The translations under genes were made by a program, and so were the position numbers. Under the pieces are notes generated by a model, which had not been told where the DNA came from, made no database searches, and saw nothing but the letters and a program-made list of their open reading frames with translations. From Pseudomonadota bacterium (GTDB lineage Bacteria; Pseudomonadota; Gammaproteobacteria; Xanthomonadales; Xanthomonadaceae), in contig JAEXBT010000115.1 in the NCBI GenBank assembly GCA_023393895.1, positions 1-5,249 of the forward strand: a stretch of 5,249 bases of DNA, in the 5' to 3' direction. Of the stretch, positions 222-5,249 are shown one piece after another. The number at the start of each line of letters is the position of its first letter. The stretch's first letter is position 1.

Positions 222-1181
222 TCACGCGTGCGTGAAACGGCGCACCGCTTCGACCAGCCGCCCGGCATCGGCGTGCGGATCGAACCAGCGCGCATCGAGC
301 TGGCCGCGGAGCCAGGTCAGCTGGCGCTTGGCCAGCTGGCGGGTGGCGAAGATGGCGCGGTTGCGGAACGTCGCGGCATCGAACCGCCCGTCCAGATGCT
401 CCCATGCCTGCCGGTAACCGACCGCACGGATGGCCGGCAGGTCGAGCGGCGCCGGGTGGTCACGCAGTTCCGGTAGGTCACGCAGTCCACGCACCTCATC
501 AAGGAAGCCCGCGTCCAGCATCGTGTCGAAGCGAGTTTCGATGCGCCGGTGCAGACTGCCGCGATCGACCGGCGCCAGCACCAGCTTCAGCACCTTCGCC
601 GGCAACCGCGGATGGGCTGCGGCCCCTTCCCGCTGCCATTGCGAGATCGGCTTGCCGGTCAGCCGCCAGACTTCAAGCGCGCGCTGGATCCGTTGCGGAT
701 CGGTGGGATGGATGCGCGATGCGGCTTCGGGGTCCACCTTCGCCAACTGTTCGTGCAGCGCCAGCCAGCCGCCCCGTGCAGCCTCCTCCGCGATCTGCGC
801 GCGCAATGCCGGATCAGCCTCCGGCATCGACGCCAGCCCGCACAGCAATGCCTGGAAGTAGAGGCCGGTGCCGCCGGCGAGGATCGGCATCCGCCCACGT
901 GCGAGGATGCCATCGATCGCTTCGCGCGCCCCCGCCGCGAACTCCGCCGCCGAGTACGGCTGCCAGGGCTCGCGCAGGTCGATCATGTGATGCGGGGCGC
1001 ACGCGAGTTCCGCAGGGGTCGGCTTGGCCGCGCCGATGTCCAGGCGCCGGTACACCAGCGCCGAGTCCACGCTGACGATCTCGCCGCCATACCGGTCGGC
1101 CAGCGTCAGTGCGAACGCCGTCTTTCCCGACGCGGTCGGGCCCATCACCGCGATCGCCGGCGGGCGACGATCGACGGGCAT
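222..1181 (-). CDS. miaA: tRNA dimethylallyltransferase MiaA (319 aa)
   Basis: The enzyme transfers the dimethylallyl group of DMAPP to N6 of A37 in tRNAs reading UNN codons, the first step of ms2i6A synthesis, which supports accurate decoding. Visible motifs: P-loop GPTASGKT at residues 14-21; SVDSALVY at 37-44 with the catalytic-type Asp39; DIGAAKP at 48-54; GGTGLYF at 103-109; [16 protein letters not shown] at 156-171; and the C-terminal RAVGYRQAW and [15 protein letters not shown] segments. The length fits the family (E. coli 316 aa). The start is the ATG at 1181-1179, which shares one base with the putP stop (TGATG) and places the P-loop as in other MiaA proteins. The frame stays open upstream to 1391, but that extension lies inside putP and is low-complexity Arg/Gly-rich, so it is rejected. 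No clear ribosome site precedes the start, so translation is probably coupled to putP. hfq follows, as in many gammaproteobacteria. Confidence 0.97.
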
Positions 1182-2671
1182 CAGTAGCCGGTCTGCGCCA
1201 GTTCCGCGCGCACCGCGTCGTGGGTCGCCAGCACGTCGGGTGAAGGCGCCCGGCTCAACAGGCTGGCCACGACCGCCGCCAGCGTGCCCGCGATGAAGCC
1301 CGGCACGATCTCGTACAGCGCACTGCCGGCGTACTGCTTCCAGAGGATCACCGTCGCCGCCCCCGCCACGATGCCGGCCAGAGCGCCCCACCCGTTCATC
1401 CGCCGCCAGAACAACGACAGCAGCACCACCGGACCGAAAGCCGCGCCGAATCCAGCCCAGGCGTAGCTCACCAGACCGAGCACGCGGCTGTCCGGGTCAC
1501 GCGCGATGAAGATTGCGACCAGCGCGACCAGCGCCACCATCGCCCGCCCCACCCACACCAGCTCTCGCTCGCCCGCATGGGGCCGCACGAAGCCGCGGTA
1601 AAAATCCTCGGTGAGCGCGCTGGAGCACACCAGCAGCTGGCAGGACAGCGTGCTCATCACCGCCGCGAGGATCGCCGACAGCAGCACGCCGGCGATCCAC
1701 GGGTTGAACAGCGTTTCCGCCAGCACGATGAAGACGCGCTCGGGGTTCGCGGTCACCGGCGCAGCCTGGTCCGCATGCGAAAGGAAATAGGGGATGCCGA
1801 AGAAGCCGACGAGGATCGCGCCAGCCAGGCACAGGATCATCCAGGTCATGCCGATGCGCCGCGCCTGCGGGATGGTGCGCACGCTCTCGGCGGCCATGAA
1901 ACGCGCAAGGATGTGTGGCTGGCCGAAGTAGCCGAGGCCCCAGGCCAGCGCCGACACCACCGCGATGGCGCCGCCGGCGCCGATCCACGAGAGTTTCCCC
2001 GGGACCTGCTCGCCGACAATGGCGATGCTGGCCTGCGGACCACCGACGGCGAACATCACGATCAGCGGCGTCAGGATCAGCGCGAAGATCATCAGCGTCG
2101 CCTGCACGGTATCGGTCCAGCTGACCGCAAGGAAGCCGCCGATCACCGTGTAGGCGATCGTGGCCGCAGCACCCCACCACAGCGCCTGCGCGTACGGCAG
2201 GCCGAACACGCTCTCGAACAGGCGGGCGCCGGCCACGATGCCACTGGCGCAATAGAGTGCGAAGAACACCAGGATCACCAGCGCCGAAACCACGCGCAGC
2301 AGCTTGCCGTTCTCGCCGAAGCGCGTGGTGAAGTAATCCGGCAGCGTGAGTGCATCAGCGCTGCGCTCGGTGTAGAGGCGCAGCGGGCCCGCCACGAAAC
2401 GCCAGTTGAGGTAGGCGCCGATGACCAGCCCCACCGCGATCCATGCCTCGCTCATGCCGGTCAGGTAGATCGCCCCCGGCAGGCCCATCAGCAGCCAGCC
2501 GCTCATGTCGGACGCGCCGGCCGACAACGCGGTCACGTAGCCGCCGAATGAGCGCCCGCCGAGGATGTAATCGTCGAAGTCGCGCGTGCGCCGCCAGGCG
2601 ATGAAGCCGATGGCGACCATCGCCACCAGGTAAAGCCCGAAGGTGATCAGGAGCGGCGTGCTGGCGGTCAT
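1181..2671 (-). CDS. putP: Sodium/proline symporter PutP (496 aa)
   Basis: An inner-membrane member of the sodium:solute symporter family that imports L-proline with Na+ for use as a nutrient or osmoprotectant. The sequence aligns almost without gaps to E. coli PutP (502 aa), so literature numbering carries over. Asp55 and Ser57 lie in [14 protein letters not shown], Tyr140 in [15 protein letters not shown], Trp244 and Tyr248 in [14 protein letters not shown], and Ser340/Thr341 in [11 protein letters not shown]. All these Na+- or proline-binding positions known from E. coli are retained. The hydrophobic pattern fits the family's 13-helix LeuT-like fold, with strong conservation in [15 protein letters not shown] (402-416). 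The ATG at 2671 has a GGGGA site 7 nt upstream and aligns with the E. coli N-terminus. It lies 49 nt after folP and its stop overlaps the miaA start. No proline dehydrogenase (putA) is in the window. Its role is sure; why it sits among housekeeping genes is unclear. Confidence 0.97.
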
Positions 2672-2696: not shown

Positions 2697-2724
2697 AGTG
2701 TACCCGCAGCCCGCGTGTGGTCAT
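2697..2724 (-). promoter_or_regulatory. Candidate sigma-70-type promoter for putP-miaA
   Basis: On the minus strand ATGACC (2724-2719; four of six matches to TTGACA) is followed after 16 nt by TACACT (2702-2697; four of six matches to TATAAT). Transcription would start near 2690, giving a leader of about 19 nt with the putP ribosome site. The -35 box overlaps the folP stop codon. Spacing is good but the hexamers are only moderate, and GC-rich DNA gives such matches by chance. Confidence 0.33.
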
Positions 2725-2732
2725 TCCGGCCA
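2720..2732. repeat. 13-bp direct repeat, copy 1 (folP stop region)
   Basis: GTCATTCCGGCCA, identical to 3642-3654. On the minus strand it encodes the last residues WPE and the stop of folP plus one base. The two copies flank folP exactly. They may be chance, a shared remnant of an old duplication, or a degenerate intergenic repeat unit. Confidence 0.4.
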
Positions 2733-3614
2733 GTCGATTACCGGCGTAGCCCGTTCCGCGCGCGGCGCCGGCACTGCGGCGACCGCTTCCCAGACCTTCA
2801 ACGCGTCGACCGTGGCGGCGACATCGTGCACGCGGACGATCCGCGCACCGTTCTGCGCGGCGATCAGGTGCGCAGCCACCGAGGCATGCACGCGCTCGGC
2901 CGGCACTTCGCGACCGGTCAGCTCGCCGAGCGTGCGCTTGCGCGAGAGTCCGGCCAGCACCGGCACGCCCAGCTCGGTGAATCGATCCAGCCGTGCCAGC
3001 AGCTCGAGGTTGTGCGCCCGACTCTTGCCGAAGCCGAAGCCCGGGTCGGCCACCAGCTTCCTCTTGTCGATGCCGGCCATCTCGCAGGCGAAGATGCGTT
3101 CGGCGAGAAAGCGATGCACCTCGCCGACCACGTCGTCGTAACGCGGCTCGGACTGCATGGTGCGCGGCTCACCGAGCATGTGCATCAGCACCACCGCCGC
3201 ACCACTTTCGGCCGCTGCATCCGGCGCGCCCTCGCGGCGCAGGGCATACACATCGTTGATCATGCCGGCGCCGGCCGCGACCGCGGCGCGCATCACCTCC
3301 GGCTTGGAAGTGTCGATGCTGATCGGCACCCCGACCCGTGCGGCCAGCGCCTCGATCACCGGGATGACCCTGCGCAGTTCCTCGTCGACCGGCACCTCCG
3401 CCGCGCCTGGCCGGGTGGATTCGCCACCGATGTCGAGCAGGTCGGCACCCGCTTCCACCAGCTGCAGGCCATGGGCGATGGCGGCTTCGACGGTGTCGTG
3501 CGCGCCGCCGTCGGAGAACGAGTCGGGGGTGACGTTGACGATGCCCATCACCCGGCAGCGATCGAGTTTCAGGATGCGACCGGCGCAGTCGAGTTGCGGC
3601 GAAGTGTCGAACAT
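2721..3614 (-). CDS. folP: Dihydropteroate synthase FolP (297 aa)
   Basis: A cytoplasmic folate-pathway enzyme that joins 6-hydroxymethyl-7,8-dihydropterin pyrophosphate to p-aminobenzoate; it is the target of sulfonamides. A TIM-barrel DHPS with the full set of signatures: NVTPDSFSDGG at residues 27-37, DIGGESTRPGA at 61-71, DTSKPEV at 101-107, Asn120, LMHMLGEPRTMQ at 143-154, DPGFGFGK at 190-197, SRK at 224-226 and RVHDV at 261-265. Expected ligand residues Asn27, Asp101, Asn120, Asp190, Lys226, Arg261 and His263 are all present, so it should be active. It is slightly longer than E. coli FolP (282 aa) owing to short tails. The ATG at 3614 is the only reasonable start, as the next Met is inside the conserved core. 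The upstream Shine-Dalgarno is weak (GGGC) and lies in a possible 5-bp hairpin (3617-3621 with 3632-3636). It lies 28 nt after the small membrane protein. ftsH-folP linkage is widespread in gammaproteobacteria. Confidence 0.97.
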   Translation of the reverse strand: MFDTSPQLDCAGRILKLDRCRVMGIVNVTPDSFSDGGAHDTVEAAIAHGLQLVEAGADLLDIGGESTRPGAAEVPVDEELRRVIPVIEALAARVGVPISIDTSKPEVMRAAVAAGAGMINDVYALRREGAPDAAAESGAAVVLMHMLGEPRTMQSEPRYDDVVGEVHRFLAERIFACEMAGIDKRKLVADPGFGFGKSRAHNLELLARLDRFTELGVPVLAGLSRKRTLGELTGREVPAERVHASVAAHLIAAQNGARIVRVHDVAATVDALKVWEAVAAVPAPRAERATPVIDWPE

Positions 3615-3641: not shown

Positions 3642-3654
3642 GTCATTCCGGCCA
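3642..3654. repeat. 13-bp direct repeat, copy 2 (stop region of the small membrane protein)
   Basis: Identical to 2720-2732 and in the same position relative to its gene: it encodes the final WPE and the stop codon. Identity ends at once on both sides, so no longer duplicated block is visible. Confidence 0.4.
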
Positions 3655-3876
3655 CTGCTCGGCCTTGCGACGGCAATACACCCCGAATGCGAGCAGGGGC
3701 GAGCCGATGAGAAGCAGGGTAAGCGTCATCGCGACCGGCGGGTCGCCAAGCAGTGCATGCGCGAACGCCAAACCCACCATCGTCAGCCCGCCCCCGGCTG
3801 CGCCGGAGGCATAACGACCCCACGCCTCGGCCGTCGTATGCGGATTCGGAGTGGGCGTGGCTTGGCCGGACATCAT
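3643..3876 (-). CDS. Small two-helix inner-membrane protein of unknown function (77 aa)
   Basis: I do not recognise a family. The protein has a short polar, Pro/Thr-rich N-terminus (residues 1-20, no cleavable signal), a Gly/Ala-rich hydrophobic stretch at about 24-43, a Gly-Asp-Pro-Pro turn at 44-47, a second strongly hydrophobic stretch at about 48-67, and a basic tail [10 protein letters not shown]. The pattern predicts a helical hairpin in the inner membrane with both ends in the cytoplasm by the positive-inside rule. It starts with two Met codons: the first (3876) overlaps the ftsH stop by 4 nt, the second (3873) by 1 nt. No good ribosome site precedes either, so translation is probably coupled to ftsH. 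Overlap with ftsH and a believable membrane topology make it a real gene rather than a shadow. A role as an FtsH partner or modulator is only a guess from position. Confidence 0.75.
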
Positions 3877-5249
3877 GCGGTCGGCTGCACACCACCCAGG
3901 TTGATCGTCTTCGGCTCCTCGGTAGCCGGGCCACCCGGCGACCAGCCGGCCGGCGGCGGCGGCTCGCGGCCTTCCATGATCGCGTCGATCTGCGGGCCAT
4001 CGATCGTCTCGTACTTGAGCAACAGCTTGGCCATGGCGTGCAGCTTGTCCATGTGCTCGGTGAGGATGTCGGTGGTGCGCGCATAGGCGCGATCAAGGAT
4101 CCCGCGGACGACCACGTCGATCTTGCGCGCGGTCTCGTCCGATACGTGCTTGGTCTGCGACACCGAACGGCCGAGGAACACTTCCTCCTCGTCCTCGGCG
4201 TAGGTGATCGGGCCAAGCTCGTCCGACAGGCCCCACTTGGTCACCATGTTGCGCGCCACCTTGGTCGCGCGCTCGATGTCGTTGGAGGCGCCGGTGGTCA
4301 CCTTGTCGGCACCGAAGATCAGTTCCTCGGCCACGCGCCCGCCGTACAGCGAGGCCAGCTGCGACTCGATCGCCACCTTGTTGAGCGAATACTTGTCGCC
4401 TTCCGGCAGGTACATGGTGACGCCCAGCGCGCGGCCGCGCGGGATGATCGTGACCTTGTAGACCGGGTCATGTTCCGGAACCATTCGCCCGACGATGGCG
4501 TGACCGGCCTCGTGGTAGGCGGTGAGCGTCTTCTCCTCCTCGCTCATCGCCATCGAGCGGCGCTCGGCGCCCATCAGGATCTTGTCGCGCGCCTTGTCGA
4601 AGTGGTCCATGCGCACGTTCTTGGCGTTCTCGCGGGTCGCGAACAGCGCCGCCTCGTTCACCAGGTTGGCGAGGTCCGCGCCGGAGAAGCCGGGCGTGCC
4701 GCGGGCCACGATCATCGGCTCGACGTCATCGGCCAGCGGCACCTTGCGCATGTGCACGCGCAGGATCTGCTCGCGGCCCTTGACGTCCGGCAGGCCTACG
4801 ACGACCTGCCGGTCGAATCGGCCCGGGCGCAGCAGCGCCGGGTCGAGCACGTCGGGACGGTTGGTCGCGGCGATCACGATCACGCCCTCGCCGCCCTCGA
4901 AGCCGTCCATCTCGACCAGCAGCTGGTTGAGCGTCTGCTCGCGCTCGTCGTGGCCGCCGCCAAGGCCCGCGCCGCGATGGCGGCCGACCGCGTCGATCTC
5001 GTCGATGAAGATGATGCAGGGCGCCTGCTTCTTCGCCTGTTCGAACATGTCGCGCACGCGCGAGGCGCCCACGCCGACGAACATCTCGACGAAGTCGGAG
5101 CCGGAAATGGAGAAGAACGGCACCTTGGCCTCGTCGCAGCCGGCGACGTCGGCGAAGGTCACCTTCACCTGGTCGTCGGAGAGCAGCTTGGCGCGGGATT
5201 TGCCGAAGGACATCGCGCCCTTGCTGCCGCCCTGCTGCATCTGCCGCAT
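3873..5249 (-). CDS. ftsH: ATP-dependent zinc metalloprotease FtsH, 5' partial, with an internal in-frame loss of the Walker A region
   Basis: A membrane-anchored hexameric AAA+ protease that extracts and degrades membrane and regulatory proteins. The first visible residues, [23 protein letters not shown], match the region just after the second transmembrane helix, so the N-terminal ~120 residues lie outside the window and the Met at 5249 is internal. Visible motifs (window residue numbers): Walker B IIFIDEID 79-86; second region of homology ending LLRPGRFDR 139-147 with arginine fingers 141 and 144; zinc site HEAGH 246-250 with third ligand Asp324 in GASND. The C-terminal tail is short ([13 protein letters not shown]). 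Odd: DVAGCDEAK (34-42) runs straight into [14 protein letters not shown]. Compared with E. coli FtsH, about 49 residues including GPPGTGKT are absent. Without Walker A the subunit should not bind ATP. The rest is near full identity and in frame, so this is either a real deletion allele or an assembly or editing artefact. The stop overlaps the next gene by 4 nt. Confidence 0.95.
5124..5132 (-). other. Deletion junction in ftsH (9-bp GAGGCCAAG)
   Basis: The minus-strand 9-mer GAGGCCAAG encodes Glu-Ala-Lys. In intact FtsH proteins this tripeptide occurs twice near here: at the end of VAGCDEAK and again in AKAIAGEAKVPFF. Here one copy remains and joins the left flank of the first to the right flank of the second. 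That is the expected product of slippage or recombination between two short direct repeats about 147 bp apart, or of a repeat-collapsed assembly. Confidence 0.8.

Follow-up and report, generated by a model that had tools for sequence, protein, structure and literature searches.

Canonical bacterial FtsH (TIGR01241; best solved-structure match PDB 7vhp, which we take to come from E. coli) is the reference for any FtsH sequence that lacks one of its motifs. FtsH relatives without one activity are known in plants: the FtsHi pseudo-proteases have lost the zinc site, not the P-loop, and they form established gene families. Spontaneous small deletions in a Salmonella culture are described, in the available part of the source, as carrying direct repeats at their junctions, with 12 of the 15 tested deletions verified and a deduced cut-off of 8 bp (PMC3411829).

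The DNA analysed here (the window, 5,249 nucleotides in its whole length) is Lysobacteraceae-like and carries on the minus strand, in this order, ftsH, a 77-codon ORF, folP, putP and miaA. The ftsH frame (3873-5249, minus strand) has 458 codons and a stop; its N-terminus is cut off by the window end, and the frame begins MRQMQQGG. The 77-codon ORF (3643-3876, minus strand), whose start shares 4 bases with the ftsH stop, had no match in Pfam and NCBIfam profile searches. It is followed by folP, for dihydropteroate synthase (2721-3614, minus strand; TIGR01496, 331 bits), by putP, for a sodium/proline symporter (1181-2671, minus strand; 1491 bp, between folP and miaA), and by miaA, for tRNA dimethylallyltransferase (222-1184, minus strand; TIGR00174, 291.7 bits), which also lies downstream of ftsH in Xanthomonas sacchari. 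The gene order in X. sacchari is rlmE, ftsH, miaA, hfq, and a joined blastn match, beginning at base 1 of the window, covers the annotated ftsH, miaA and hfq of the X. sacchari record; thus, the window ftsH stands at the ordinary ftsH locus. The ftsH-miaA gap of X. sacchari measures 1182 bp, contains no listed gene, and is too small for the 1491-bp putP of the window.

In the window FtsH, DVAGCDEAK runs directly into VPFF, and 49 codons (147 bp) are absent, the P-loop among them. The D-E-A-K codons on the left side of the junction lie at 5124-5135 (minus strand; GACGAGGCCAAG at 5135-5124), and the V-P-F-F codons on the right side at 5112-5123 (minus strand; GTG CCG TTC TTC). A P-loop motif was sought in the ftsH frame and none was found. 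Pfam matched Peptidase_M41 (246 bits; PF01434, 2.9e-73), AAA_lid_3 and AAA, the last only from profile position 19 onward, and the GPPGTGKT of Walker A was not found. The whole-protein score for TIGR01241 was 700.7 bits (cut-off 600), while that for the narrower NF008004 was 775.2, below its cut-off of 1008. The HEXXH of the M41 peptidase domain is kept as HEAGH (residues 246-250), and the arginine region and the M41 site are retained. IIFIDEID and a further stretch, which we take to be Walker B and the second region of homology, are present as well, and alignment A1 is invariant at most of their positions. A first, sequence-only reading of this DNA had described an in-frame loss of about 147 bp that removes Walker A; the ORF, the junction codons, the Pfam matches and the spacing in homologues bear this out, as the frame and the domain matches do for the motifs that it listed as kept (Walker B, the arginine fingers, HEAGH and the third zinc ligand).

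The protein searches scored about 8,000 candidates sharing most words and listed 120 of them, so that homologue counts, those of deleted forms included, hold among the matches listed. The spacing from DEAK to VPFF was 49 residues in 223 of the 228 homologues listed and 0 in two (P0043 and P0103); the other three have EEAK instead of DEAK and were left out of the measurement. A G.PG.GKT motif stood ahead of VPFF in 343 of the 348 proteins among the matches listed, the five others being three deleted proteins (P0043, P0103 and P0229) and two point variants with the spacing of 49 (P0204 and P0218). Single changes in the P-loop, free of any deletion, were seen in P0115, P0162, P0173, P0204 and P0218 (GQPGTGKT, GSPGTGKT twice, GPQGTGKT, GPPGTSKT). 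Outside the gap, the window FtsH is 97.2% identical to P0001 and P0002. One could suppose that nothing was deleted and that close relatives naturally carry a shorter FtsH, as three other proteins (P0043, P0103 and P0229) are short too. There is next to no chance of this: the six nearest relatives among the matches listed (P0001-P0006, 95.6-97.2% identity outside the gap) all have the spacing of 49 and the P-loop, which rules out a natural short FtsH in relatives. An alignment with close relatives was a check named at the outset, and it returned full-length proteins and no natural short form among these six.

The best DNA relative found for the window ftsH was the X. sacchari ftsH (L084), with 86% identity over 95% of the query. 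This gene contains an 11-bp direct repeat, CGAGGCCAAGG, twice, the copies exactly 147 bp apart and located at both breakpoints; the same pair, again with a spacing of 147 bp, occupies the breakpoint positions in the Methylomagnum ftsH (L085). By comparison with L084, the window has a single remaining copy, at 5123-5133 (minus strand), across the deletion junction. The pattern is that of a short-direct-repeat deletion, with the repeat at both breakpoints in intact relatives and one copy at the window junction. The two copies in L084 can also be defined as a 14-nt repeat, 93% alike. We then have to consider how often such homology would arise by chance: a junction homology of at least 11 bp is seen for 63 of the 309,993 in-frame cuts (30-600 bp) of the X. 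sacchari gene, about 2 per 10,000, and for 63 of the 926,733 cuts in any frame. Given the repeat 147 bp apart in relatives and the few random cuts with such homology, a repeat-mediated join is the best reading of the deletion, whether it occurred in the cell, in the tube or in software. Judging from these relatives, the species of the window probably carried the 11-bp repeat before the loss. The sequence-only reading had overlooked this repeat at the breakpoints in relatives, which is the likely cause.

In both DEAK and GEAK, the EAK is encoded by this repeat. Among the matches listed, AGEAK precedes VPFF or IPFF in 211 of 228 proteins and AGEAR in 14 of 228. The near relatives P0002 and P0003 have AGEAR, not AGEAK, and the repeat would be shorter there, which counts against an artefact at the repeat. 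The four further loci measured (L002, L082, L086 and L087) gave a longest breakpoint match of 5-6 bp; in L002, a 76% protein relative with 60% GC, it was 5 bp. The viral-contig loci measured had 0-2 bp of homology at the breakpoints, and all except L002 were below 45% GC.

Some further features of the X. sacchari gene were recorded. The left copy of the 11-bp repeat is enclosed by a 12-nt inverted repeat (24-nt loop; L084:5100-5147), which could favour strand slippage. All six direct repeats of at least 11 bp found within 1000 bp in the gene (L084:4611-6548) are spaced by multiples of three, so repeat-mediated deletions in the X. sacchari ftsH would tend to preserve the reading frame. As a cause, a strong hairpin within the lost segment was considered and rejected (DNA fold of L084:5080-5280, z -1.64; 13 of 200 shuffles as good).

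The identical junction, also overlooked in the sequence-only reading, is present in other FtsH proteins encoded on very short contigs: P0043 (596 aa, contig of 2427 bp), P0103 (586 aa, 1838 bp) and P0229 (583 aa, 2496 bp), the last found with a probe altered to VPFFT. Each is a one-member cluster from one contig, all below 2.5 kb. P0043 shares 81% identity with P0103, P0229 shares 65% with each of them, and by pairwise identity the junction-bearing proteins do not group. P0043 and P0103 are on the two shortest of the 119 contigs of stated size among the matches listed, an outcome with a probability of 1.4e-4 under random labelling in a post hoc test; the search that gave P0229 listed many fragments on short contigs, and the test is limited to the list with P0043 and P0103. 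Two observations go against an artefact: P0043, P0103 and P0229 have at least 160 residues N-terminal of the junction, which is thus not at a contig tip, and the window, with 5.2 kb, exceeds the other three junction contigs in size. The contigs of these three proteins and of P0017 (see below) are presumed to be metagenomic, and the source table gives jgi or ena.

Furthermore, the junction pattern (C-D-E-A-K and then V/I-P-F-F) was searched in genome_contigs, which covers 84,980 species and holds no contigs below 3 kb. It returned no FtsH, a zero that depends on contig size, and one match in an unrelated gene; this sole match, in a non-FtsH gene of Chitinophagaceae, was set aside as due to chance. 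In the viral contigs, the junction pattern gave 0 matches, and the exact intact repeat pair was not found either, the latter being a narrow pattern and so uninformative.

Then, we looked at the integrity of the remaining gene by counting unusual residues in columns with a conservation of at least 95%: there is 1 in the window, 2 in P0043 and 1 in P0103, and the median over 155 sequences is 1; the comparison covers the first 430 window residues and sequences of at least 580 aa that are at least 85% identical, a set that P0229 falls outside. Gene decay after the loss was rejected, as 104 of the 155 sequences (counting the window) equal or exceed the window in this number. Between the deletion junction and the window end there are 114 bp. 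Another anomalous ftsH was found in P0017, a protein from a 4581-bp contig (source ena). From residue 301 to the end it is 100% identical to a Solilutibacter FtsH, while over residues 1-200 its identity to the Solilutibacter protein is 24-68%; its residues 1-300 are 86% identical to the FtsH of Shinella, an alphaproteobacterium. On these alignments P0017 is a cross-class ftsH chimera, so these data do contain false joins in ftsH.

On balance, we consider it probable that the window holds an ordinary Lysobacteraceae-like ftsH minus 147 bp, that this allele most likely supports no living cell, and that a false technical join was made at the repeat. The intact ftsH would carry two CGAGGCCAAGG copies 147 bp apart around the P-loop segment, and a false join at the repeat during the making, stitching or assembling of reads would remove one copy together with 147 bp. 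Candidate steps are the merging of read pairs on an 11-bp chance overlap, PCR polymerase jumping, or gap closing on a short overlap. The technical nature of the join is what we infer from several observations: the short contigs of P0043, P0103 and P0229 and the recurrence in quite different FtsH lineages, the genome_contigs scan without an FtsH match (in a collection without contigs below 3 kb), the lack of decay in the remaining gene, the position of the junction close to the window end, and the second false ftsH join in P0017. Minimum overlaps down to 10 bases are used in read stitching, a matter of general practice rather than of these data, according to the available parts of PMC5915699 and PMC6083499. 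In its available part, PMC5915699 ascribes falsely stitched reads to contaminants of unexpected length, not to repeats, and a role of repeats in false stitching here would be our own extension. We found no literature on gap closing by assemblers. The sequence-only reading had named a second ftsH copy, a mixed population or a tolerant host, with an assembly or editing artefact as equally possible, and did not decide among them; its caution was justified. The evidence leans to an artefact, and no observation speaks for a second copy.

A genuine deletion is the less likely explanation of the junction. The 11-bp repeats may have led to the loss of the 147 bp through replication slippage or strand annealing, in a single cell line or a minority of cells, leaving a dead or dominant-negative FtsH, recent and bound to be lost; we regard this as possible but rather unlikely. 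It would agree with the intact remainder of the gene and with the 11-bp direct repeat at the junction, which matches verified spontaneous bacterial deletions in the available part of PMC3411829. The same part uses long junction homology as a mark of a true deletion against a ligation chimera, which speaks against an artefact. Moreover, ftsH can be lost in some bacteria: a review, as far as its available part goes, has it dispensable in Pseudomonas aeruginosa, Caulobacter and others (PMC9020784), so that the earlier argument from the essentiality of ftsH settles the matter neither way. However, the same rare event in four FtsH lineages would need a high rate, the other three copies are on contigs below 2.5 kb, and genome_contigs, which has no contigs below 3 kb, yielded no FtsH with the junction. 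A bolder form of the genuine deletion takes the P-loop segment as a deletion hotspot, through a DEAK/GEAK repeat forced on high-GC ftsH by the conserved AAA sequence, so that Walker-A-less, dominant-negative FtsH would keep arising in natural bacterial populations and adjust proteolysis in a minority of the cells; we give this very little credence.

It could also be proposed that the window encodes a retained, functional Walker-A-less FtsH subunit, acting in mixed hexamers with a second, intact FtsH. The same junction in four FtsH lineages, the preserved reading frame and protease motifs, and the lack of decay are what a kept variant would show. Nevertheless, the gene is at its ordinary place, followed downstream by miaA and hfq just as X. 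sacchari has them, the junction-bearing proteins do not group by pairwise identity, none of the other three copies is on a contig above 2.5 kb, and the cut takes a strand and helices besides the P-loop (in a low-confidence model); this proposal is therefore highly improbable. According to the secondary structure predicted for intact P0001, the cut takes out the helices 166-180 (except the first four residues) and 182-187, the strand 195-199, the P-loop and the helix 206-217. The missing strand is central in the AAA+ sheet. The AlphaFold models rest on shallow alignments and are of low confidence (mean pLDDT 62.5 for the window protein with 42 alignment rows, 66.1 for P0001 with 39 rows); from them we used only the secondary structure of P0001, the intact protein, and the model of the shortened protein does not prove that it misfolds. 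As the ATP-binding loop is lost together with the predicted strand and helices of the ATPase core, the window FtsH, if made, would more likely be a misfolded or dominant-negative subunit than a free-standing peptidase. The peptidase without unfoldase activity suggested earlier is doubtful, since the cut also takes the predicted helices and strand beside the P-loop in this low-confidence model.

Returning to the preferred reading, a false join at the repeat, the main value of the case is as a warning: the in-frame loss of a catalytic motif can mimic a designed inactive enzyme and may be nothing more than two short repeats joined, and public protein collections contain this join more than once. 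Should the deletion prove real and recurrent, then a protease gene that is often essential would have, in its conserved coding repeat, a natural hotspot for deletions, open to direct measurement.

Compared with the known systems, the window FtsH shares with canonical bacterial FtsH the remainder of the AAA domain, the AAA lid, the M41 domain, Walker B and HEAGH, and differs from it in the absence of 49 residues with the P-loop and the neighbouring predicted helices and strand. Like the plant FtsHi, it is an FtsH relative minus one activity; unlike them, it keeps the zinc site while the P-loop is gone. It resembles the spontaneous short-homology deletions of PMC3411829, as presented in the available part, in being a small deletion with a direct repeat of at least 8 bp at the junction; those deletions were verified by padlock probe or PCR, whereas that of the window is read from an assembled contig. 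With the chimera P0017 it has in common an ftsH frame that joins places not belonging together, sequences from two bacterial classes in P0017 and two places within one gene in the window. Taken together, the window junction suggests an error of sequencing or assembly, or else a mutation by chance, rather than an enzyme of a new kind.
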